Below, in pieces: positions 19,828 through 31,595 of a stretch of 41,695 nt of DNA. Location of the stretch: the NCBI RefSeq assembly GCF_019683755.1, contig NZ_JADGHT010000005.1, positions 1 through 41,695 of the forward strand, in the 5' to 3' direction. Each line of letters starts with the position of its first letter. The first letter of the stretch is position 1. The stretch is from Thermogemmatispora sp. Lineage in GTDB: Bacteria; Chloroflexota; Ktedonobacteria; Ktedonobacterales; Ktedonobacteraceae. Below the pieces are notes generated by a model, which was not told the DNA's origin, searched no databases, and was given only the letters and a program-made list of their open reading frames with translations. The position numbers and the translations under genes are program-made.

Positions 19828-21291
19828 CTAGGGTGAAACCTCATCTAGGCGCTTCTGCCGGGTGGAAGGGCCAAACTGTGCCAGCAGGGCGGCCAGCAGC
19901 AGAAAGCTGCCGATGAGCACAAAGGTACCACCTGGCCCCAGACGCGTCACCAGCGACGTCACATAGCTGACGCCGATGCCACCGCCGACATGGCCAATGC
20001 CGTCAACCAGGGCGAAGCCGCTGGCACGCGCTCGCGTCGGGTAATTCTCCGTCGACCAGGAGTAGACCATTGGCAGCCAGATGTAGCAGCCCATTCCCAG
20101 CACGATGGTTCCGAGAGCCGCCAGTCCAAAGCTGTTGCCACTGAAAGCAACAGTGACCTCTCCCAACATTGTCAGCAAAGCGGCCACCAGCAGCCAGATC
20201 TTGCGTTCGACGTATTCGCCAAGCAAGTAAGCCGAGAGGGCGCAGATCGTACTGCCAATGATACCGCATGAAGTGATCAGACCGGCTTCGGCAACTGGAT
20301 AGTGGAGGGCCACCAACAAGGTCGTCATGCCTGAAATATTCGAATAGACCGTGATATAGGCCAGCAACCAGATGACCAGGAGCAGAATGGTGCGTTTGAA
20401 ATAGAGCGTATTGCTGAAGATCTCCTTGTAGCCAGTGCGCCGATCGTAGATGGGGACCTGGAGCTCCGGCTCCGGCGGCGGCAGCTCGCCACCCAGATGC
20501 TGGCGGGCGTAGTCTTCCATGCGTTCAACAACGCGCTCGGCCTCATAGATACGGCCTTTGGTAATAAGCCAGCGCGGCGATTCAGGGAGCTGGAAGCGCA
20601 GCAGTAGACCGATAAAGGCCAACGAGGCGCCAATAGCATAAACAACGCGCCAGCCGAAGGTAAAATGTGGGCCGGCCAGCGCAATGGGCAATCCGTAGGG
20701 AAACGGTTCTGGCGGCGTCGTCAAATAAAAGCCGAGCCAGACGCCCAAGGAGCCTCCCAGCGAAGACAGGATGAAAGTGAGAGCTGTGTAGCGGGCGCGC
20801 GCCCCGCGCGGGGCCAGCTCATTCACATAGGTATTGACCAGGGCCAGATCGGCCCCGATCCCAACGCCGGTCAACGTGCGCGCCAGCACAAAATGTGTAT
20901 AGTCTCCCACAAAGGCCGTGTAGAGGGAGCCAAGGCCGGTAATGGACATAGTGACTACCATCATGTCGCGGCGTCCGTAGCGGTCTGCCAGCGGACTAAA
21001 GATCAAGGCTCCCACGACATAGCCTAGCAGATTCATAAGAACAGGGAAGCCCAGATACTGGCTGGCTGTAAGCGGGAGGCAGCCAACAATAATTTGGGTG
21101 CAGGTCTGAATGAAGGAGACATTGATGTCGCCGATATCGTAGAACGTGAAGAGCAACCCCAGACCAATCACCAACAGCACAGTTCGCGGTAAGGCCCAGA
21201 TCGGAATACGGTCTTGCCGGGCAATGATCGCCGCCGCAACGCGCGATTTCTTCTGGCCAGGAAAGACAACTCTGCTCGCTTGAGCTGACAT
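19828..21291 (-). CDS. MFS transporter, sugar-porter/organic-acid-porter type
   Basis: Major-facilitator secondary transporter, 487 residues and about twelve membrane helices. Helices 2 and 3 are joined by ADRYGRRD, the MFS motif A. LARTLTGVGIGADLALVNTY is the helix 4 pattern. After helix 6 comes PESPRWLITKGR, shared with sugar porters and related organic-cation/acid carriers, followed by a long charged cytoplasmic loop (RVVERMEDYARQHLGG). ATAGGAG lies before the ATG. Its promoter about 180-225 bases upstream carries the same operator as the acyl-CoA dehydrogenase and liv operon promoters, so it is probably part of that regulon and could import a related compound. Substrate not readable from sequence. 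Confidence 0.88.
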   Translation of the reverse strand: MSAQASRVVFPGQKKSRVAAAIIARQDRIPIWALPRTVLLVIGLGLLFTFYDIGDINVSFIQTCTQIIVGCLPLTASQYLGFPVLMNLLGYVVGALIFSPLADRYGRRDMMVVTMSITGLGSLYTAFVGDYTHFVLARTLTGVGIGADLALVNTYVNELAPRGARARYTALTFILSSLGGSLGVWLGFYLTTPPEPFPYGLPIALAGPHFTFGWRVVYAIGASLAFIGLLLRFQLPESPRWLITKGRIYEAERVVERMEDYARQHLGGELPPPEPELQVPIYDRRTGYKEIFSNTLYFKRTILLLVIWLLAYITVYSNISGMTTLLVALHYPVAEAGLITSCGIIGSTICALSAYLLGEYVERKIWLLVAALLTMLGEVTVAFSGNSFGLAALGTIVLGMGCYIWLPMVYSWSTENYPTRARASGFALVDGIGHVGGGIGVSYVTSLVTRLGPGGTFVLIGSFLLLAALLAQFGPSTRQKRLDEVSP

Positions 21292-21441
21292 ACTGTACTC
21301 CTATTGCTTTTACGTCTGGGAAATCAGCTTCTTTACAAGAAGAGGGCATATTCTTTTCTCTGATCCCTGATGGCCTCCCTGAGCACAAAATCAAGAAACG
21401 CCAGAATGCTTGTCTTCACACGCTTGTTATCCACTCAGGCA

Positions 21442-21464
21442 GCATATGAGAAGGCGACATATGC
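21442..21464. promoter_or_regulatory. 7-bp inverted repeat at the MFS transcription start
   Basis: GCATATG (21442-21448) and CATATGC (21458-21464) are separated by 9 bases. The element begins about where the MFS transcript would start, 6 bases after the TACAAT. It could be a second operator or a 5' mRNA hairpin. Confidence 0.35.
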
Positions 21465-21470
21465 AGAGCC

Positions 21471-21517
21471 ATTGTAGAGAAAAAGTGGCAGGTAGACAAT
21501 GTTTGGCAGGACAAATT
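21471..21517 (-). promoter_or_regulatory. promoter-operator of the MFS gene
   Basis: On the - strand: AATTTGT-N8-ACATTG (21517-21497), in which TTG starts a -35 element TTGTCT. After a 17-base spacer comes TACAAT (21476-21471), then GGCTCTGCA. The operator half sites and spacing equal those before the acyl-CoA dehydrogenase and livF genes. Confidence 0.65.
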
Positions 21518-21667
21518 GCAAAGGAGAAATTGTACTCAGCGACAAGCCTAAGAGTCAGTTAGCCCCGCCCCCTGATCTCCCCTGTGGCGGTGAGGGAGAC
21601 CAGGGCGGCCGGGGCCAACTGCTGGCTCGTGCGGGCTGAGCATGTGGATGGAGAGGGGACAGGCTTC

Positions 21668-21928
21668 TTAGCTCTCTGGAAGGCCATCGAGATGGCGAGC
21701 GATCAGCGTCATGGCCTGCTCACCAACCAAGGCCCGCAACTGCGCGTGAATCTCCCCCATGCGTTCCATGCGCCGCGTGATAAAGCGATGGCGGCTCACT
21801 CCCAGGGCCAGGCCCTGTAAGCCACGTTCAGCCGCCTCATACTCGGCCTGAATCTGGGCGAGCAGGCGGGCCACCTCAGACCTGGACCCGGACCCATCTG
21901 TGCCGGGCTGCTCTTCGGATACGGACAT
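21668..21928 (-). CDS. small helical protein of unknown function
   Basis: 86 residues, not recognised. A Ser/Gly-rich start is followed by two predicted amphipathic helices (EVARLLAQIQAEYEAAERGL and RRMERMGEIHAQLRALVGEQ). TAGGAG lies about 6 bases before the ATG, and the protein has no Cys and no membrane segment. It lies 197 bases after the acyl-CoA dehydrogenase and may be on its transcript. A coding reading is favoured by the ribosome site and composition, but it is short. Confidence 0.6.
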   Translation of the reverse strand: MSVSEEQPGTDGSGSRSEVARLLAQIQAEYEAAERGLQGLALGVSRHRFITRRMERMGEIHAQLRALVGEQAMTLIARHLDGLPES

Positions 21929-22125
21929 AGCCAGCTCCTACGTTCTTCCTTCCAGGGTGAAACCAATGCACAACCGCTCTCCCACCCGTCCCTAGGCGAG
22001 GTCTGGCTGTCCTTGCCAGAGAAGGCCTTTCTTTCTGCCTTCCTTGCCTGCCCGCTCCTGCTGGCGGCGGATCAGGAAACTGACTCTTCAAGGGCGGCGC
22101 GAGCTGGCCCGCAAGCCAGCCAGCT

Positions 22126-23292
22126 TTAGAGTGTCTCACCGACCTTGACGTGACCGCGCAACAGGTTGCGGGCAATGATAAAGCGCTGGATCTCGTCGGT
22201 CCCCTCGAAAATGCGCCAGACACGCATTTCGCGATACCAGCGCTCGATAGGCAGTTCTTTGGTATAACCCATGCCGCCATGAATCTGCAGCACACGATCG
22301 ACGACGCGATTGGCCATATTAGCGCCGTACAGTTTGGCTACCGAGGCGGCATGGCGGTTATCCATCTGCTGCTCTGCCTGCCAGGCGGCGAACAGGGTCA
22401 GCCAGCGGGCAGCCTCGATCTCCACGTAGGAGTCGGCGATCATCCACTGGATGGCCTGGCGCTCGGCAATTGGCTTGCCGAAGGTGACGCGCGTACGAGA
22501 ATACTCGATCGCCATCTCCAGCAAACGCTCGGCGGCCCCGACAGCGCGCGCGGCAATGTGCCAGCGACCGGCGCCGATCCACTTCATGGCGAGCTGGTAG
22601 CCCTGGTTTAAGCCGCCGAGAATATTCTCCTCGGGAACACGCACGTTCTCAAAATAGAGGGCCGCTGGTCCCCAGGAGCCCATTGTGGGAATGTAGCTCG
22701 AGCGCCAGCCCATCTCTCGATCGACCAGGAAGCAGGTCAGGCCCTCGCGTACCCCCTTCTCAGGGTCGGTCAGGGCGAAAACCATAGCAAAGTCGGCCTC
22801 GTTGCCGTTGGTGATAAAGATTTTTTCGCCGTTGAGGACCCACTCATGGCCATCCTTGACGGCCCGCATCTTGAGGTTAGAGACATCGGAACCGGCCCCT
22901 GGCTCGGTCAATGCAAAGCAGGAACGGCGTTCGCCGTTAATGGTTGGGATCAGGTAGCGCTTCTTCTGCTCTTCGTTGCAACTGTAGAGAATGTTGTCGG
23001 CGGAGCCGCCGAAGGTGAAAGGCACAAAGGTGCGGTAGAGTTCAATGGTGATGACCGCGGTCATAATCGGGCCAAGATTAGCCCCGCCGTACTCCTCGGG
23101 CGTATTAATACCCCAAAAGCCCAGTTCTCGAGCCTTCTGCTGCAGCTCGCGGAGCTTGGCGCGGTCCAAGCCGGGGCGTCCCTCTCGCTCGTTGCGCAAG
23201 ACCTCGCCTTCCAGTGGCATCAGCTCCCTCTTGACAAAGGCGCGCACCGTCTCCTGAATCATCTTCTGTTCTTCTGTCAGGCGGAAATCCAA
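22126..23292 (-). CDS. acyl-CoA dehydrogenase
   Basis: FAD enzyme that introduces the alpha-beta double bond in acyl-CoA thioesters, passing electrons to ETF. 388 residues in the standard order: N-terminal helices, middle beta domain with CFALTEPGAGSDVSNL (family signature), FITNGNEADF, and a C-terminal helical domain with QIHGGMGYTKELPIERWYRE. The glutamate in IFEGTDEIQ occupies the position of the catalytic base in medium- and short-chain enzymes. The start is TTG at 23292, with AGGAGG 6 bases upstream. It is preceded by the regulon-type promoter at 23509-23557. With a liv-type importer nearby, a role in branched-chain acyl-CoA oxidation is attractive, but the chain specificity cannot be told. 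Confidence 0.93.
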   Translation of the reverse strand: MDFRLTEEQKMIQETVRAFVKRELMPLEGEVLRNEREGRPGLDRAKLRELQQKARELGFWGINTPEEYGGANLGPIMTAVITIELYRTFVPFTFGGSADNILYSCNEEQKKRYLIPTINGERRSCFALTEPGAGSDVSNLKMRAVKDGHEWVLNGEKIFITNGNEADFAMVFALTDPEKGVREGLTCFLVDREMGWRSSYIPTMGSWGPAALYFENVRVPEENILGGLNQGYQLAMKWIGAGRWHIAARAVGAAERLLEMAIEYSRTRVTFGKPIAERQAIQWMIADSYVEIEAARWLTLFAAWQAEQQMDNRHAASVAKLYGANMANRVVDRVLQIHGGMGYTKELPIERWYREMRVWRIFEGTDEIQRFIIARNLLRGHVKVGETL

Positions 23293-23508
23293 AGTTCTCC
23301 TCCTCGTTGGTTGCTCGCAGCTCGTGCTCTCCCATCAAGCTGGAACTGGGCCGCGCTGCTTCGGCTGACCAGGCTCTATGGTCTGCACTAGCCATCTTTG
23401 GGCCGCAGATTGGATGGCCTCAAGATGTCATCTGGTCAGCCGATCGGTTGGTCAGCCGACAGCCCAGCAGCTAGGGCTGATCAGGACGCCTGGTCCGGGT
23501 ACAGAGCT

Positions 23509-23557
23509 ATTGTATGGGGAGAACAACGGGGGAAGGCAATGTTTTGACTGACAAATT
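23509..23557 (-). promoter_or_regulatory. promoter-operator of the acyl-CoA dehydrogenase gene
   Basis: On the - strand: AATTTGT-N8-ACATTG (23557-23537), a -35-like TTGCCT starting in it, a 19-base spacer, then TACAAT (23514-23509) followed by AGCTCTGTA. The sequence after the -10 also resembles that of the MFS promoter (GGCTCTGCA). Confidence 0.63.
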
Positions 23558-23582
23558 CAAGGCCGCTCCTTTGTCGTAGGAA

Positions 23583-23633
23583 ACAGGGAGTGCCCGCCGT
23601 GTCAGGCCGGGAAAGGCGGACTGCACTCCCTGT
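23583..23633 (-). terminator. probable terminator of the PucR-type regulator gene
   Basis: ACAGGGAGTGC (23583-23593) and GCACTCCCTGT (23623-23633) are perfect 11-bp complements. An inner CCGCC/GGCGG stem (23594-23598 with 23615-23619) continues the helix. Read on the - strand it is followed by TTTCC. It separates the regulator from the promoter of the acyl-CoA dehydrogenase. Confidence 0.58.
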
Positions 23634-23694
23634 CAGGCTGGCCCGCTGAGCTGGTTCGAGCGAAGCGCTGCGCTGGGGACCAGGGCGCGCGCAC

Positions 23695-25836
23695 TCAGCG
23701 GCCTGTGGAGCTGGCTCCTTGTTCCGCGTGGGTGCGCTGCCAGATGAAGGCCGCCAGCGCCATCGCCGTTTGCTCCTTAGGCGTATGCTCATCGCTGCCG
23801 AGCAGGTCCTGGGCGCGGTGCAGACGATAGCGGATCGTATTAACATGGACGCCGAGGCGCTCAGCTACTGCCTGGGCCGAGCCGAGCGTTTGGGCCAGCA
23901 CAAAGGTTTCGGTCAGATGCGAGCCGGTGGCGCGATCGTAGTCGAGCAGGGGCTTAAGCAGTTTGGCAGCGAAGGCCTCCAGGTCCTTGATCAGGCGCGG
24001 ATTCTCGAGCAGGCTATCGAGGCCGAAGGTATAGACGTCAAGCAGGTACTCACCGTAGCCCTCGCGGCGAGCCTTGTGCGCCAGGGCGATAGTGTGGGTC
24101 AGCCCCATCTTCAGGTCTTCCAGCGAGTGGTAGCGTCCGCCGTAGACGATCCACAGGGGCTGAACGCCGCAGTGCTGCAACAAAGCATCGCGCACCTTTG
24201 AGGGTGGCTGAGGCGCCTGGCCCTCCAACAAAACGATGGCAGTATCGTCATCGACAAAGATCAGCGGACTCTTCAGGCAATCCAGGACCACGCTCTCAGC
24301 GATCATGCGCTTGCGAGCCGACTTCATGGCCTGCAGACCCTCTAAGGGCCAGGCCAGCACCCAGAACTGTCCGCGCTCGACTGGCAAACCGAGCCGATAG
24401 CCATCCTGCTCTACGTATTGCAAAGACTGACTCTTGAGCAGCGAGCGAAGCCACTGCTCACGGCGGCGGTCAAGCTGATCCTGCGCCTGCTCCAGGCGCG
24501 TGATGACCAAGTTACAGGCCACTACCAGATCGTAGAGGAAATCCGGCCATTGCGGCGGTGGCAGTGGCACCGCGGGAGAAAGATAGATCGAGCCGGGACG
24601 CTCAAGGCCAGCTAGCGCCAGCGGCACCACCTGCACCTTTTCTGGCTGACGAGCACGCTCGGCACGCAGTTGCTCCAGCTCCTCGCTACGAGCCAGCACA
24701 TAGGGCTTGCCGCTGCCATCGGTCACAATCACCGGTCCCTTGATCAGTTGGCTGGCCCAATTCTCAACGGCCTCTATCCGGTTAGCGTGTAGCAGCAGCT
24801 CATACCAGGCCGTCTTAGCATCGGGTGTACGGGTCAGGCCAGGCCAATGGATCACAGCAGGGCGTTCGGCGGGTGGCAACGGCTCGAGCAAGCGAGTCAA
24901 GCGCTGGCCAAGAAGGAACTCGGCCAGTGAAAAGGGGGCGACGGTGCGGCGCGTTGTATAGAGCACCGCGGCCACATGAGCGCTGCCATCGGAGATCCTC
25001 TGCGAGCGCACCGGCAGAGCCATACCCGAGCGCACCTGTTCGCGATCGACGATGTCGCAGACACTGGGGTCGCGGTAGGGTGAATTGCGGTAATCGCCGC
25101 GCCCCATAGGAGTTCCGTAGGCGGCGACGCGACCGCCGATGCCGCGTCCCAGGCCCAGGGCAAAGCCGAAATTGTGATGGAGGGCACCCAAATGGCCGGC
25201 GATCTCCACCACATCGTTATAGGCGCGGCCCCAGAAGGTGAAATCGGCATGGGTCACAATGCGCGCCAGGCTCAAAATAGCGGCCAGCGCCTGGGTATCG
25301 CCATGAGCCAGGGCCTCAATCAAAGCGCGGTCGTGCACGGGCGAGCTAGGCGAGAAATACTGTTCTTCCTTTTCCTCCACCTCTAGCAGGGCCTCCAGCG
25401 TCTGGCGAACGCGGAGCAATCCTTCGCTTGGAGGGAGAGCGAAAGCGCCGCCCTCGCCTGGTGTGGGCCAAAGAATCCAGAACGCACACCGACCGCTGGC
25501 GGGGGAAGCGAGTTTCAGGAAGAGCGCCGGGGGCATATCGCTCAAGCCGGTGCGTAGATCGCGTTCGAGTGTGCCGGCCACGACCTCGGGGGAAGGATCG
25601 AGGCGCGCTGACAGCCAGCGGTGCATAGCATTGCGTCGGATACCAGCGTAATAGACCCTCCACGGCCCCTTACGCTGTGGAGAGGGCCAGATCAAAGCTG
25701 TGGCTACGGCAGGCATGCGGGGCAGCAACTCCTGGAGAGCGCGCGTGATCGCGTCATCGCGCTGCTCTGGGCAGAGGGCTGCGCTCTTCAGGGCATGAGT
25801 CACGGGGGTCCAGGGATCTGGAGAATGCTCTTGCAT
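23695..25836 (-). CDS. PucR-type transcriptional regulator with GAF-like region and C-terminal HTH
   Basis: 713-residue regulator. The C-terminal 60 residues contain the PucR/CdaR helix-turn-helix (LGSAQAVAERLGVHVNTIRYRLHRAQDLLG). Before it comes a GGDEF-related, CdaR-like middle domain (about 485-610). Residues about 180-330 resemble a GAF sensor (FALGLGRGIGGRVAAYGTP then VRSGMALPVRS). The family typically senses a metabolite and controls an adjacent catabolic or transport gene. The ATG at 25836 is preferred over an in-frame extension to 26037, since GAGGGCG lies upstream and the extension would run through the divergent promoter region. It is transcribed away from livF; its own promoter overlaps the shared operator, suggesting autorepression. 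Confidence 0.85.
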   Translation of the reverse strand: MQEHSPDPWTPVTHALKSAALCPEQRDDAITRALQELLPRMPAVATALIWPSPQRKGPWRVYYAGIRRNAMHRWLSARLDPSPEVVAGTLERDLRTGLSDMPPALFLKLASPASGRCAFWILWPTPGEGGAFALPPSEGLLRVRQTLEALLEVEEKEEQYFSPSSPVHDRALIEALAHGDTQALAAILSLARIVTHADFTFWGRAYNDVVEIAGHLGALHHNFGFALGLGRGIGGRVAAYGTPMGRGDYRNSPYRDPSVCDIVDREQVRSGMALPVRSQRISDGSAHVAAVLYTTRRTVAPFSLAEFLLGQRLTRLLEPLPPAERPAVIHWPGLTRTPDAKTAWYELLLHANRIEAVENWASQLIKGPVIVTDGSGKPYVLARSEELEQLRAERARQPEKVQVVPLALAGLERPGSIYLSPAVPLPPPQWPDFLYDLVVACNLVITRLEQAQDQLDRRREQWLRSLLKSQSLQYVEQDGYRLGLPVERGQFWVLAWPLEGLQAMKSARKRMIAESVVLDCLKSPLIFVDDDTAIVLLEGQAPQPPSKVRDALLQHCGVQPLWIVYGGRYHSLEDLKMGLTHTIALAHKARREGYGEYLLDVYTFGLDSLLENPRLIKDLEAFAAKLLKPLLDYDRATGSHLTETFVLAQTLGSAQAVAERLGVHVNTIRYRLHRAQDLLGSDEHTPKEQTAMALAAFIWQRTHAEQGASSTGR

Positions 25837-25881
25837 AGTGGCGCCCTCGCCATTGTGGAAGCCAACAAATAGCCATCCGCC

Positions 25882-25929
25882 AATTTGTAGATGAAGACAT
25901 TGTATACCATCACGCTGCCTGTTTACAAT
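25882..25929 (+). promoter_or_regulatory. promoter-operator of the liv operon
   Basis: AATTTGT-N8-ACATTG (25882-25902) overlaps the -35 TTGTAT (25900-25905); an 18-base spacer leads to TACAAT (25924-25929), then AGGCTTGCA. Transcription would start near 25936, giving a leader of about 275 nt before livF. The layout matches the two other copies in the window. Confidence 0.65.
25899..25928 (-). promoter_or_regulatory. promoter of the PucR-type regulator, overlapping the liv promoter
   Basis: On the - strand, TTGTAA (25928-25923), an 18-base spacer and TACAAT (25904-25899). The -10 lies within the right half of the shared operator and the start point (about 25892) within its centre, so a bound regulator would block this promoter. 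Confidence 0.5.
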
Positions 25930-26114
25930 AGGCTTGCACGAAACGCCAGAGGCCGCCAGGGTCGCTACCAGCGGTAAGGAGCCAGGCCTGCGGCGATGGA
26001 GGCGAGGAAAGAGAGGGCCAGCCGAACAACCGGGCACTCGCCAGAATGGGCCAGCCTCTCTAAGCGGTGGTAGCCGCCTGGCAGGTGTCGGATAGAAAGC
26101 TGCCTGGGGTGAGC

Positions 26115-26136
26115 GACAGAGCCGCTGCGCTCTGTC
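26115..26136 (+). other. hairpin in the liv leader
   Basis: GACAGAGC-CGCTGC-GCTCTGTC is a perfect 8-bp stem in the roughly 275-nt leader, 75 bases before livF. No U run follows, so it is not a terminator by itself. Confidence 0.45.
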
Positions 26137-26210
26137 TGTGCGGGTAGCCTAAGCAGGGAAGCGGACCGAACGAGAATCAGTCAGCATCGCTGCCGACGGA
26201 GGAAGCGCCT

Positions 26211-27011
26211 ATGCTCGTGCTGCAGGACGTTGCCGTCACTTATCAGAATGTCATCCCTGCGCTGCGGGGAGTCTCGCTGGAGGTCCCTGACAAGGTAGTT
26301 GTTGCCCTGCTGGGAACGAATGGAGCTGGCAAGACAACCCTCCTGCGCGCCATTTCCGGCCTGCTCCCGCTGCATCGAGGCGCGCTGGTTGGCGGTCAAA
26401 TCCTCTTTGAGGGCGAGCGGATCGATCGCCTCTCGCCCACGCGCATTGTCCAGTTAGGTATTGCCCAGGTACTGGAAGGGCGCCGTCTCTTTGAAGACCT
26501 GACAGTAGACGAGAACCTCTACGCTGGGGCCATCACGGTGCGCAATCCCGCGGCTGTACGGCGTGCCTATGATCGTGTCATGAGCCTCTTCCCGAACCTC
26601 GCCGAGCGGCGGACCAGTCGTGCTGGTTACCTCTCGGGGGGAGAACAGCAGATGCTAGCCATTGGGCGTGCGCTCATGGCCTCGCCGCGCCTGTTACTTC
26701 TCGACGAACCTTCTCTAGGATTGGCCCCTTTCATGGTGCAGCGCATTCGCAGCATTATCGCTGAGATCAATGCCGAAGGCACTGCGGTCCTGCTTGTCGA
26801 GCAGAATGCCCAAATGGCTCTCTCCGTCGCCCACTACGGCTACGTCCTCGAAACTGGGCAGGTGGCCCTGGCCGCGCCCGCTGCTCGCCTCTTGCAAGAG
26901 GAAAACATTCGTCAGTTCTACCTGGGGCTGCGTGAAGGAGAACGGCAGCTAGCGCTTGGGCGCCTTCGCCAGCGGCGAGCCCAGACGGCAGAGAGGAGGT
27001 GGCAGGCATGA
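26211..27011 (+). CDS. livF: branched-chain amino acid-type ABC transporter ATPase LivF
   Basis: Cytoplasmic ATPase of a HAAT-family importer. Walker A GTNGAGKTT near residue 34, Q-loop region, ABC signature LSGGEQQML, Walker B LLLLDEPSLGLAP and the switch His replaced in VLLVEQNAQ, the usual LivF pattern in which Gln follows Glu. Length (266) is slightly above the usual 235 because of an Arg-rich C-terminal tail. GGAGG precedes the ATG. Its stop codon overlaps the start of livG (ATGA), so the two ATPases are translationally coupled. Gene order FGHMK is reversed relative to the classic KHMGF operon. The true substrate may be an amino acid, amide or other small acid. Confidence 0.92.
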   Translation: MLVLQDVAVTYQNVIPALRGVSLEVPDKVVVALLGTNGAGKTTLLRAISGLLPLHRGALVGGQILFEGERIDRLSPTRIVQLGIAQVLEGRRLFEDLTVDENLYAGAITVRNPAAVRRAYDRVMSLFPNLAERRTSRAGYLSGGEQQMLAIGRALMASPRLLLLDEPSLGLAPFMVQRIRSIIAEINAEGTAVLLVEQNAQMALSVAHYGYVLETGQVALAAPAARLLQEENIRQFYLGLREGERQLALGRLRQRRAQTAERRWQA

Positions 27012-27880
27012 GCGAGGTTCCTAATCGCCTCAACCTGGCTAGCGACAACCACCAGCCAGGGAAGAATGAGCCACTCTTGCGCGTTGAGCAGCTCTCGGTC
27101 CGCTTTGCCGGAGTACGGGCCCTCAGCGATGTCTCTTTTGAGGTCTGGCCGGGCGAACTCTTTGCTGTCATTGGCCCTAATGGCGCCGGCAAAACCTCCC
27201 TCTTCAATGTGCTCTCGCGCGTCTACCAGCCCGAGACAGGTCATGTTACCTTTGCAGGCCAGGATCTGCTGCGGCTCAAGCCCCATCAAGTGGCCAGGGC
27301 TGGGATCGCGCGTACCTTCCAAAATATGGGCCAGTTCCCCACCATGACTGTTCTGGAGTACCTGCTCCTGGGTCGTCACACACGCATGCGTAGCGGTATC
27401 CTGCGCGCCGGCCTCTTTATCGGCCCGACACGCCGTGAGGAGTGGGAGAACCGGGCCTACTGTCTCCATATCCTCGATCTGCTGAACCTGAAAGAGGTGC
27501 GCGATCGACCTCTGGGCAGCCTGCCCTATGGTTTGCAGAAACGGGCCGACCTGGCGCGCGCGCTGGCAATGGAGCCGCGTCTGCTGCTCCTGGATGAGCC
27601 AGTAGCGGGCATGAGCCTGGAGGAGGTCGAAGAGATCGCCGAGGTCATTCTCGAGATCAAAGAGCAGCTCGGCATTACTCAGATCCTCGTTGAGCACGAT
27701 ATGGCTTTGGTGATGGGCCTGGCCGACCGTATTCTTGTCCTGGACTTTGGCCGCGTCATCGCTGAGGGCAGGCCGGCAGAGATCCAGGCCAATCCGGCAG
27801 TCATCAAGGCCTATCTGGGCGAGGAATCAGAACAACTGCCGGCACCCGTCGATGATCTGCCCGCCGTCTCCGAGAACTAG
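27008..27880 (+). CDS. livG: branched-chain amino acid-type ABC transporter ATPase LivG
   Basis: Second ATPase of the importer, 290 residues. Walker A GPNGAGKTS, the LivG-specific insertion with GIARTFQNMGQFPTMTVLEY, signature LPYGLQKRADLARALA, Walker B LLLLDEPVAGM, and ILVEHDMALVMGLADRILVLDFG with the switch His are all present. The start at 27008 is chosen because AGGAGG lies 8 bases upstream and it forms the ATGA overlap with livF; a GTG at 26999 is in the ribosome site itself. A non-conserved tail of about 20 residues ends the protein. Confidence 0.93.
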   Translation: MSEVPNRLNLASDNHQPGKNEPLLRVEQLSVRFAGVRALSDVSFEVWPGELFAVIGPNGAGKTSLFNVLSRVYQPETGHVTFAGQDLLRLKPHQVARAGIARTFQNMGQFPTMTVLEYLLLGRHTRMRSGILRAGLFIGPTRREEWENRAYCLHILDLLNLKEVRDRPLGSLPYGLQKRADLARALAMEPRLLLLDEPVAGMSLEEVEEIAEVILEIKEQLGITQILVEHDMALVMGLADRILVLDFGRVIAEGRPAEIQANPAVIKAYLGEESEQLPAPVDDLPAVSEN

Positions 27881-28008
27881 GGACAGCCTGGAACTGGTAA
27901 CATACAGCTTGCCTGCTGCAGGCGCCTGTTGCCTTGGCCTACCGTGGAGCAGGTCTTGAGTAGGCTGTTGCGGTTGGCTATCTACTTGTGCAGGAGGAGC
28001 AATGAGCG

Positions 28009-28908
28009 ATGGCCTATTTCCTTCAGTTGGTCTTTGCGGGCATAGCCCAGGGCTGCATCTATGCTCTCATTGGACTGGGCTTTAGCATCATCTTTAAAGC
28101 GAGCCAGGTCATTAATTTCGCCCAGGGTGAGCTGTTGCTTGTCGGAACCTACATTGTAGCAAGCGCTGTCCTCAACTGGCATCTACCCTTTTTGCTGGCT
28201 CTGCCCTTGGGCTTGCTAGTCACCGTGGTCATCGGCCTGCTCTTTGAACGCCTTGTTCTGCGCAGGATGATTGGTCGTCCGCCCTTCACTATCCTCATGA
28301 TTACCATTGGTCTGGACATCATTCTGCGCACGCTGGTCATCGTAGGCTGGGGGTCACGTACCATTCCAGCGGCCACGCCCTTCAGCGTCACCAGCGGCTT
28401 CAATGTGGCTGGGGTACACCTGGGCAGTAGCGACCTCTGGACAATTGCGGTGACGGTAGTCCTCTGCGCCGCCCTTTACTATTTCTTCCGTCACACGCGC
28501 TACGGTCTAGCCATGCGGGCCACAGCCCTCGATCAGGAGGCGGCACTAGCCATTGGCATCGATGTGCGCACTGTCTATGCGCTAGCCTGGGGTCTGGCGG
28601 CGGCCATCACGACGCTCGGGGGCGTGTTGCTGGCCATCGACAGTCTGGCGATTGATCCCAATTTCGGCAATGCGGCCCTGGTCGCCTTTCCGGCCATTAT
28701 TCTGGGTGGTCTCGACTCCATCAGTGGCGCGGTTGTCGGAGGCGTCATCATCGGTCTGACCAGCGTCCTGACCGCTGGTTACGAGAGCCGTTTACCGGCG
28801 GTCATTGGCACTGGTCTGCACGAGGTCACACCTTATTTGCTGATGATCCTCATCCTTCTGATTCGTCCCTACGGTCTCTTCGGCTCAAGAAAGGTAGAGC
28901 GCGTATGA
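28009..28908 (+). CDS. livH: branched-chain amino acid-type ABC transporter permease LivH
   Basis: Membrane permease with about eight hydrophobic segments in 299 residues. The opening YFLQLVFAGIAQGCIYALIG and the following INFAQGELLLVGTYI are the LivH hallmarks (N-F-A-Q-G-E). The cytoplasmic loop MRATALDQEAALAIGIDVR matches the ATPase-contact (EAA-like) region. AGGAGGAG lies 9 bases before the ATG. A 128-base gap with the GC-rich palindrome GCCTGCTGCAGGC separates it from livG. Its stop codon overlaps livM (ATGA). Confidence 0.93.
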   Translation: MAYFLQLVFAGIAQGCIYALIGLGFSIIFKASQVINFAQGELLLVGTYIVASAVLNWHLPFLLALPLGLLVTVVIGLLFERLVLRRMIGRPPFTILMITIGLDIILRTLVIVGWGSRTIPAATPFSVTSGFNVAGVHLGSSDLWTIAVTVVLCAALYYFFRHTRYGLAMRATALDQEAALAIGIDVRTVYALAWGLAAAITTLGGVLLAIDSLAIDPNFGNAALVAFPAIILGGLDSISGAVVGGVIIGLTSVLTAGYESRLPAVIGTGLHEVTPYLLMILILLIRPYGLFGSRKVERV

Positions 28909-30158
28909 TCGCGACACGGGAGCACAGCCATAGCCGTCATCACCGTCAAGAGCTGCCGCGCGAAGCCGAGCCGCCGCGCCTGCTGGGGAGTCCTGGACGC
29001 TGGCTCTGGTTGGGGGTTGGTGTACTGGCGCTGCTTCTCTTCTTCTCGCTGGCCGGCGACGACTGGTTCACCATTGTCAACTACTGCCTGATTGCGGCGA
29101 TCGCCACTCTGGCGCTCAATCTGCTCTCGGGCTACACTGGGCAGATCTCGCTGGGACTGGCCTTCTTCATGGGCCTGGGAGGTTACACGGCGGCGCTCCT
29201 GGGGGGCAATCCGCCTGTAGGGCCGCTTGATCCCTGGGGCCTGGGCCTGCCCGTCTTCGTCTGGCTACCGGCGGCAGGCCTGGTTGCGGCTCTGGTCGGG
29301 GCACTGGTTGGCCCGAGCGCCCTACGTCTGCGCGGTTTCTACCTGGGCATTGTGACCCTGGCGCTGGTCTTCATCGGCAATTATCTATTCCGTAATCTGC
29401 GCTTCATCACTGGGGGGCCACAGGGACGCAATTTCCCGGTGCCAACCTTTGGCAGCGTCTCGCTCGATCAGCAGAATAGCCTCTTGGGCATTGCTCTGAC
29501 TTCAGGGCAGCAGTATTTCTTACTCATGCTGCTGGTTCTCCTGCTCTCGGCACTCTTTGTCTACAATCTCAGCCGATCGCGCGTCGGGCGCGCCATGCGG
29601 GCCGTGCGAGACCATGAGGTGGGCGCTGCCATCATGGGGGTGAACCTCTTTGAGGTCAAGATGGGGGCCTTCGTGGTCTCCTCGTTTCTAGCAGGCGTGG
29701 CCGGCGCGCTCTACGTCTCCTATGCGCGCTATGTGATCCCCGACTATTGGAGCTTGAGCCTCTCGATCCAGTTTGTGGCGGCCATCATCATCGGGGGAAT
29801 CGCCGATGTCTGGGGGTCCATCTTGGGGGCGGCCTTCGTCTTTGCTCTGCCCCAGATCATCGACTACTTCTCACTGCTGCCGCCCAGTACCGGCGGCGGG
29901 GGCCTCAGCAGCGGCGACTTGAATGCCTTGCTTTATGGACTGCTGATCATTGTCTTCCTGCTGTTTGAGCCTGGCGGAGTCATTGGTCTGCTGCGCCGCT
30001 TGCGCCCCACCGCGCGTCGGCTCCGGCCAGTGGGGGCGGGAGTGGGTAAGGCTGCAGTCAATGAAGGGGGTGAAAATATTGAGGTGGTCGATCTGCTGCA
30101 ACACGCACCTGAGAGCGGCGAGGAAGGAAGGGGGCCGCGCGGGGGCCGCACATCTTAA
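28905..30158 (+). CDS. livM: branched-chain amino acid-type ABC transporter permease LivM
   Basis: Second permease, 417 residues. After a His/Arg-rich cytoplasmic start come about ten hydrophobic segments with LALNLLSGYTGQISLGLAFF (LivM hallmark), LRLRGFYLGIVTLAL, and the ATPase-contact loop SRVGRAMRAVRDHEVGAAIMG. The C-terminal 55 residues are charged and Gly/Arg-rich, longer than usual. It starts inside the stop codon of livH, so the membrane subunits are made in a coupled way. Confidence 0.93.
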   Translation: MIATREHSHSRHHRQELPREAEPPRLLGSPGRWLWLGVGVLALLLFFSLAGDDWFTIVNYCLIAAIATLALNLLSGYTGQISLGLAFFMGLGGYTAALLGGNPPVGPLDPWGLGLPVFVWLPAAGLVAALVGALVGPSALRLRGFYLGIVTLALVFIGNYLFRNLRFITGGPQGRNFPVPTFGSVSLDQQNSLLGIALTSGQQYFLLMLLVLLLSALFVYNLSRSRVGRAMRAVRDHEVGAAIMGVNLFEVKMGAFVVSSFLAGVAGALYVSYARYVIPDYWSLSLSIQFVAAIIIGGIADVWGSILGAAFVFALPQIIDYFSLLPPSTGGGGLSSGDLNALLYGLLIIVFLLFEPGGVIGLLRRLRPTARRLRPVGAGVGKAAVNEGGENIEVVDLLQHAPESGEEGRGPRGGRTS

Positions 30159-30332
30159 GCCGAGCCTGGTGCGCCAGGATCAGCTTGCTGTCGTTGCCCC
30201 TGTTCTCCTCTCTCGGCCGCCTTCCAGAGAGGCTCATCTGAGCTTTCCGGCAGTCAAAAAGACCATTAGAAACAAACCAGCCGGTTCTCTGTAGTATTTT
30301 GTGCCTTTGGCTCGATAAGGGGGTAATCGCTC

Positions 30333-31595
30333 ATGGTCACCAAACGCTTCTTGTTTACCTGTATACTCATCCTCCTGGCCGGTCTACCGATTCTTGCGGG
30401 CTGCGCGGGCAGCAGCACCGGCAGCACTACGGGTGGACTGAAGGCGGGGCCTGGCGTCGATCTTAACAAGAAGACGATTACGCTGGGCATTCTCTCGCCC
30501 TACTCGGGACCGGTGGCCGGGCCGGTTGGCATCCCGATTGCTAATGGCGTCAAAGCCTTCTTCTACCACGTCAATGATCACGGCGGGATTAACGGTTTCA
30601 AAGTTCAGTTTATTGAACAGGATACGCAGTACAGCCCGCAGCTAGAAGTACAGAAATATAATCAGATCCGCAACCAGGTGCTGATGATCGCCGACAGCCT
30701 TGGAACGCAGCCAACCTTTGCCATCAAGGACCTGGCGGCAGCCGATCACATGCTGGTCTCGGCGGCTACCCTCTCATCGGCGCTGGCGCGTGAGAAGTAC
30801 CTGATTCTAGTCGGCACGCCTTACCGTCTGCAGGTTGAGAACGCCTTTGACTACATTGTCAACAAGCTTGGGGTCAAGAATCCGGACACGGCCATCATCT
30901 ACCAGAACGATGACTATGGCCAGGACGGCCTGACAGGCTACCGCGAAGCGGTCAGCGTCTATCATCTGCACGACGTGGCTCAGGTCTCCTTCGCGGTCAA
31001 TGACACCGACTTCACGGCTCAGGTGGCGCAGCTAAAGGCTTCTGGGGCGAAGTATGTCTTTATGACAACGCTACCAACGGCAACGGCGACCATTATCGCC
31101 ACGGCCTACAAGCTGGGCTACAATCCGCAGTGGATTCTGCAAAGCCCGGCTTTCTCGATTCAACTGTTGGCGGTACCGGCCCTGAAGCCACTGATCAGCC
31201 GGGCCTGGGTGGTCTCTCAGGGGGCGGCCTGGGGCGATACCAGCGTGCCGGGCATGAAGCAGATGTTAGAGGATCAGGCCAAGTACTTCCCGAAGCAGCA
31301 GCCCGATGGCTACTTTGAGTTTGGCTATGCCGAGTCCTATGTGACCTACGCCATTCTCAAAAAGGCGATGGAGAACGGCGACCTGACGCGCGATGGCCTC
31401 TTCCGCGCCTTTGAGTCGCTGCAGTCAGTGGATATGGGCGGTCTCCTGCCACCGGCGCACTATGGCTCGACTCCCGATCAGCGCGTGCCGACCCGCGATT
31501 CGGTGATCTATCAGGTAGATGCTACCCAGCCCGCCGGTGTCAAGCCGATCTCGCCCGATTTCACTGGAGTGGCTGCCAGCCAGTCTCATTTCTAA
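30333..31595 (+). CDS. livK: branched-chain amino acid-type ABC transporter substrate-binding lipoprotein
   Basis: Extracytoplasmic receptor of the importer (Leu/Ile/Val-binding family, periplasmic-binding fold type I). Lipoprotein signal: KRFLFTCILILLAGLPILAG with lipobox LAGC and Cys at residue 23, then a Gly/Ser/Thr linker. The mature protein begins KTITLGILSPYSGP, the usual first strand, and has GGINGFKVQFIEQDTQYSP and AIIYQNDDYGQDGL, both family motifs. AAGGGGG precedes the ATG. It is last in the operon, 174 bases after livM. Ligand unknown: family members also bind urea, amides and aromatic acids. Confidence 0.92.
   Translation: MVTKRFLFTCILILLAGLPILAGCAGSSTGSTTGGLKAGPGVDLNKKTITLGILSPYSGPVAGPVGIPIANGVKAFFYHVNDHGGINGFKVQFIEQDTQYSPQLEVQKYNQIRNQVLMIADSLGTQPTFAIKDLAAADHMLVSAATLSSALAREKYLILVGTPYRLQVENAFDYIVNKLGVKNPDTAIIYQNDDYGQDGLTGYREAVSVYHLHDVAQVSFAVNDTDFTAQVAQLKASGAKYVFMTTLPTATATIIATAYKLGYNPQWILQSPAFSIQLLAVPALKPLISRAWVVSQGAAWGDTSVPGMKQMLEDQAKYFPKQQPDGYFEFGYAESYVTYAILKKAMENGDLTRDGLFRAFESLQSVDMGGLLPPAHYGSTPDQRVPTRDSVIYQVDATQPAGVKPISPDFTGVAASQSHF

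Follow-up and report, generated by a model that had tools for sequence, protein, structure and literature searches.

Thermogemmatispora is a soil-dwelling, heat-loving bacterial genus, and in the stretch of its DNA analysed here (41,695 nucleotides, hereafter the window), one sequence, AATTTGT-N8-ACATTG, stands before three transcription units: an MFS transporter gene, an acyl-CoA dehydrogenase (ACAD) gene, and a liv operon. The initial annotation took it for the operator of a regulon controlled by the PucR-type protein encoded among these genes, which raises the question of what exactly the repeated element is, which protein would bind it, and to what effect. The reading that we hold to be probable is that each repeat is the promoter-proximal member of an operator pair, and that the three pairs define a local PucR-type regulon in which a pair of dimers activates the target genes and autorepresses pucR. 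The genes concerned are as follows:

19828..21291, minus strand: MFS transporter gene (Sugar_tr/MFS_1).
21668..21928, minus strand: 86-aa ORF in the interval that separates the ACAD gene from the MFS promoter, 87-89% identical in congeners, of no known family.
22126..23292, minus strand: ACAD gene, 388 aa.
23695..25836, minus strand: PucR-type regulator gene (pucR), 713 aa, with a GGDEF-like domain and a C-terminal PucR helix-turn-helix (HTH).
26211..31595, plus strand: livFGHMK.
26211-27011 and 26999-27880, plus strand: the two liv ABC ATPases.
28009-28908 and 28905-30158, plus strand: the two liv permeases.
30333-31595, plus strand: liv substrate-binding protein (LivK), branched-chain-type, nearest PDB entry 4n03.

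All three copies have the exact letters proposed, at 21517-21497 and 23557-23537 on the minus strand and 25882-25902 on the plus strand, and TACAAT follows each after 20 (MFS), 22 (ACAD), and 21 (liv) bases. A search of the window at up to 3 mismatches found 12 matches against 3.6 expected, a number that 0 shuffles reached. The elements at the three promoters are:

21497..21517, minus strand: MFS proximal operator, AATTTGT-CCTGCCAA-ACATTG, exact match, arms invariant in six genomes.
21471..21499, minus strand: MFS promoter, -35 TTGTCT, 17 bp, -10 TACAAT, from consensus scan and sequence, conserved.
23537..23557, minus strand: ACAD proximal operator, AATTTGT-CAGTCAAA-ACATTG, exact match, conserved.
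23509..23514, minus strand: ACAD -10 TACAAT, 22 bp past the operator, with TTGCCT as a weak -35 where the proximal operator ends.
25882..25902, plus strand: liv proximal operator, AATTTGT-AGATGAAG-ACATTG, spanning the -10 and start of the divergent pucR promoter.
25924..25929, plus strand: liv -10 TACAAT, 21 bp past the proximal operator, the same gap as in a second genus.
25899..25928, minus strand: pucR promoter, TTGTAA, 18 bp, TACAAT, an independent consensus match conserved in six genomes.

Two further parts of the original description need qualification. Each copy had been said to overlap a -35, and the terminal TTG of ACATTG does open one, but the resulting hexamers are weak and the overlap is loose (TTGTCT or TTGCCT for MFS, TTGCCT for ACAD, TTGTAT for liv); the -35/-10 spacers are 17, 18, and 19 bp, the longest being that of ACAD, and the consensus scan scores the MFS promoter as a 9/12 sigma-70 match. 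Likeness had also been reported in the bases after the -10, and it is present in all six genomes of the genus (TACAATGGCTCTGCA, TACAATAGCNCTGTA, TACAATAGGCTTGCA) but missing from the liv promoter of the second genus (TACAATAAATTC), so we do not count it as a defining part and dropped it as a component of the operator.

The motif had been expected to be rare across the genome and conserved upstream of orthologues, and it proves to be both. The whole assembly (4,892,384 bases in 537 contigs) holds 3 exact matches and 2 at one mismatch, and each of five congeners has precisely 3 exact copies, all at the liv, ACAD, and MFS promoters, with invariant arms around N8 letters that vary between congeners. 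The order MFS, small ORF, ACAD, pucR, livFGHMK is kept in the genus, one genome being split over contigs. Beyond the genus, exact copies number 0-2 per genome, which is about chance level.

The functional unit is a pair of operators, an array that the initial annotation had missed. A scan within 150 bp found one further TGT-N8-ACA for each motif copy in 18 of 18 promoters in the six genomes, where the background density of this pattern is 0.07 per 300 bp, as measured from the whole window with the array sites counted in. These distal sites are centred upstream of the proximal ones, by 32 bp at liv and ACAD and by 31 bp at MFS:

21527..21548, minus strand: MFS distal operator, GGCTTGT-CGCTGAGT-ACAATTT, core conserved in six genomes.
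23568..23589, minus strand: ACAD distal operator, TCCCTGT-TTCCTACG-ACAAAGG.
25850..25871, plus strand: liv distal operator, CCATTGT-GGAAGCCA-ACAAATA, which is also a minus-strand match of the first motif at two mismatches.

Tandem TGT-N8-ACA at a spacing of 31/32 occurs genome-wide at these three promoters only, in six of six genomes, and a reversed-control tandem at the same spacing gave 0 matches there. Between species, the arms and distal cores are invariant in 57 of 57 columns and the spacers and linkers in 54 of 80 (Fisher p = 1.7e-7); for the distal cores alone against spacers and linkers, the value (Fisher p = 0.003) is descriptive only, since the pattern was recognised post hoc in the same alignment. 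The independent tests of the distal pattern are its genome-wide exclusivity and the second genus described below. Although proximal copies were gathered through their exact arms, a one-mismatch search showed that no promoter had been omitted on that account. A promoter-like match, CTGACT-18-TACAAT at 21529-21558 on the minus strand, crosses the distal MFS operator and has its -10 within the conserved ACAATTT arm.

A wider regulon was considered and rejected: searches with the motif at two mismatches and with the 32-bp tandem at one mismatch returned scattered, near-control matches, the extra tandem matches being at control level, and a one-mismatch match in L004 falls within an open frame. Tandem matches in some other members of the family are mostly repeat families or long hairpins. 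In G026 and G024 (L104, L105) and G027 (L092), hairpins and repeat families match TGT-N8-ACA tandems in many copies (e.g., TGTGGAAGGCTACACC...TGCCCACA); these are probably mobile or repetitive elements.

The pucR promoter, likewise overlooked before, is nested among the liv operators. The pucR -35 shares bases with the liv -10, the pucR -10 shares bases with both the liv -35 and the proximal operator, and the distal liv operator falls within the pucR 5' leader, about 15 bases before the ATG. The gene is divergent from livF in six of six Thermogemmatispora genomes. Its product matches PF13556, the C-terminal PucR helix-turn-helix (E 4e-11, over the gathering score), a match present in 7 of 7 orthologues, and six of the seven match PF17853 (E 3.6e-7 in the window protein), a GGDEF-like domain found in many, although not all, PucR family members. 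PF07905, the N-terminal PucR domain, has no match in the window protein even at E 0.5, so we name it a PucR-type HTH regulator whose sensor part is of another kind, rather than a full PF07905 member. The N-terminal 470 residues have no Pfam assignment; a GAF-like appearance of residues 170-320 was a by-eye impression that found no Pfam support and was set aside. An AlphaFold model built on a shallow alignment (mean pLDDT 40) is usable in the HTH only.

An orthologue of this regulator is present in 7 of 400 Chloroflexota genomes, the six Thermogemmatispora and G013, a member of another genus of the same family. The G013 protein is 55% identical and its gene adjoins livK, convergently; apart from this, the liv operon matches livFGHMK and spans two contigs, both broken within livK. 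The G013 livF promoter reads CATTGT-TCTCGCAA-ATAAAT, a linker, CTTGT-TACTGAAA-ACATAG, 21 bases, and TACAAT, an array with 1/12 mismatches, a centre spacing of 31, and a gap to the -10 equal to the 21 bp of Thermogemmatispora. Dinucleotide shuffles produced the array in 1 of 2000 cases and the array with the -10 in 0 of 2000. At the -35 position stands TAGCCA, no recognisable -35. In G015, where a liv operon 62-75% identical occurs without such a PucR, 700 bp contain no array even at 2 mismatches, and in family members without such a PucR, array matches are dispersed, of background frequency, or part of long repeats. This tracking of PucR by the array across two genera, with one positive and one negative lineage, is the strongest evidence that the sites belong to PucR. 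The motif is supported as a locus-specific operator that is best assigned to the PucR-type regulator among the genes, with independent support from the second genus.

The other two targets behave differently outside Thermogemmatispora. The ACAD and MFS orthologues of G013 and G015 (the G013 ACAD being 77% identical) are unlinked and without the array, and no linkage of ACAD or MFS to the array was found outside Thermogemmatispora in the two genomes read for both orthologues. Ancestral membership of ACAD and MFS in the regulon is thus not supported in these two genomes; membership beyond liv is genus-specific because the G013 orthologues of both lack the array. Upstream of their MFS genes, G015 and G013 (loci L126 and L127) share another dyad, about AGAACAA-N-TYGTTCA, just past the likely -10, which suggests another regulator, in repressor position, for the MFS gene in those genera.

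If the PucR-type protein is indeed the binder, as we infer, then a dimer would recognise TGT-N8-ACA through half-sites of about ACAAWK, whose centres lie 11 bp, or about one helical turn, apart. Two dimers would sit 31-32 bp, or about three turns, from each other and would therefore lie on one face of the helix. The proximal dimer, centred at about -42 to -44, would touch the weak -35, and the distal dimer would be centred at about -74 (both positions assume that transcription starts 7 bases past the -10). When an effector is sensed, the dimer pair would activate sigma-A transcription of MFS, of ACAD with the small ORF, and of livFGHMK. The same occupancy would cover the -10, start, and leader of pucR and amount to negative autoregulation: judging from the overlapping promoters, occupancy that favours liv should hinder pucR. 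Dependence on an activator fits the weakness of the -35s, their spacers of 17, 18, and 19 bp, and the lack of a recognisable -35 in G013.

A site that overlaps a -35 could serve repression too, and the same protein on the same sites might act as a repressor, or in a mixed manner, the occupied proximal operator keeping the -35 blocked until an effector lifts the block. The contact with the -35 and the fair sigma-70 match of the MFS promoter would suit such an arrangement, and B. subtilis PucR is reported to be both activator and repressor (PMC7652997). Nonetheless, we consider this rather unlikely, because sites centred near -42 and -74 stand where activators classically bind, because the -35s are weak, the ACAD spacer measures 19 bp, and the G013 liv promoter has no recognisable -35, and because characterised PucR-type regulators are mostly activators (PMC7652997).

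That a different protein encoded elsewhere in the genome, for example of LysR or TetR type, owns the sites and PucR is a mere neighbour retains a small probability, which we put low. Dyad pairs at about -42/-74 would suit LysR-type regulators also, but the 41.7-kb window holds no recognisable DNA-binding regulator besides PucR, the array follows PucR in two genera and is missing at the G015 liv promoter, matches in family members without PucR are of the scattered, background, or long-repeat kind, and the array encloses the pucR promoter. A recent duplication of one promoter segment, with the repeat being no functional operator, is very improbable: the likeness does reach TACAAT and a few bases past it, but the N8, the linkers, and the operator-to--10 gaps (20, 21, and 22 bp) differ, with arms and centre spacing preserved, and between species the arms are invariant where N8 and linkers change.

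Paired operators of PucR-type activation have a precedent in GabR of Corynebacterium glutamicum, a divergently encoded PucR-type activator of gabTDP that binds two 21-bp inverted repeats just 5' of the -35, with strong binding needing both (PMC7652997). The likeness extends to the PucR-type HTH, the regulator gene divergent from a target operon, the two inverted repeats, each about 21 bp, directly 5' of the -35 (in 18 of 18 genus promoters and the G013 liv promoter), the local regulon of transport and catabolic genes, and the sites overlapping the regulator's own promoter. GabR, however, belongs to another phylum, has other target genes, lacks a GGDEF-like domain, and serves one target promoter, whereas the Thermogemmatispora regulator has the domain and three paired promoters. 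GabR is a close working precedent, and the Thermogemmatispora circuit would be new yet conventional in kind. AdeR and PutR of Bacillus subtilis, as cited in PMC7652997, are activators that bind 24- and 17-bp inverted repeats; they share the PucR-type architecture with a GGDEF-like domain and inverted repeats 5' of catabolic genes and differ in repeat length and substrate (alanine, proline), a comparison by published description. MabR (Rv2242; PDB 9f80) of Mycobacterium tuberculosis is reported to form dimers and tetramers and to have recognition helices one helical turn apart (PMC11617747), a spacing that suits the 11 bp between half-sites here. Similarity to its C-terminal HTH is detectable, but MabR has a globin-like N-terminal domain and a regulon for mycolic acid synthesis.

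What substrate would unite the three units? The best NCBIfam profile of the MFS protein is TIGR00895 (aromatic acid:H+ symport family), with a score under the cut-off. The ACAD, whose gene is probably cotranscribed with the 86-aa ORF downstream, is of a generic short/medium-chain-like type. The three regulated units contain no CoA ligase or other downstream pathway enzyme. A carboxylic acid, imported and then oxidised as its CoA ester, would be a reasonable common substrate. The ligand of the LivK relative 4n03 is presumably a fatty acid; we set aside reading the regulon's substrate off this entry, since no confirmation of this ligand was found.

We lean towards the view that this is a Chloroflexota PucR-type regulon in which a regulator ancestrally tied to a liv importer captured, in Thermogemmatispora, an ACAD and an aromatic-acid-type MFS through the same phased paired operator at each promoter (TGT-N8-ACA, 31/32-bp centres), with autorepression through the embedded divergent promoter. 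To our knowledge, operators have been mapped for few PucR-type regulators, and the literature that we searched contains no PucR-type regulon in Chloroflexota. The array offers a compact operator consensus and spacing rule for one such regulator, supported across genera, and delineates a complete regulon of three promoters that is open to direct testing; it also suggests how a regulon may grow, with liv as the ancestral target and two genes apparently recruited later.

The predicted leaders of all three units are long, about 180, 210, and 280 bases (21292-21470, 23293-23508, and 25930-26210). The start of the ACAD transcript, CTGTACCCGGACCAGGCGTCCTGATCAG (23477-23504, minus strand), is near-invariant in the six genomes while the remaining leader diverges; it contains GGAC-N5-GTCC and is possibly a second control element.
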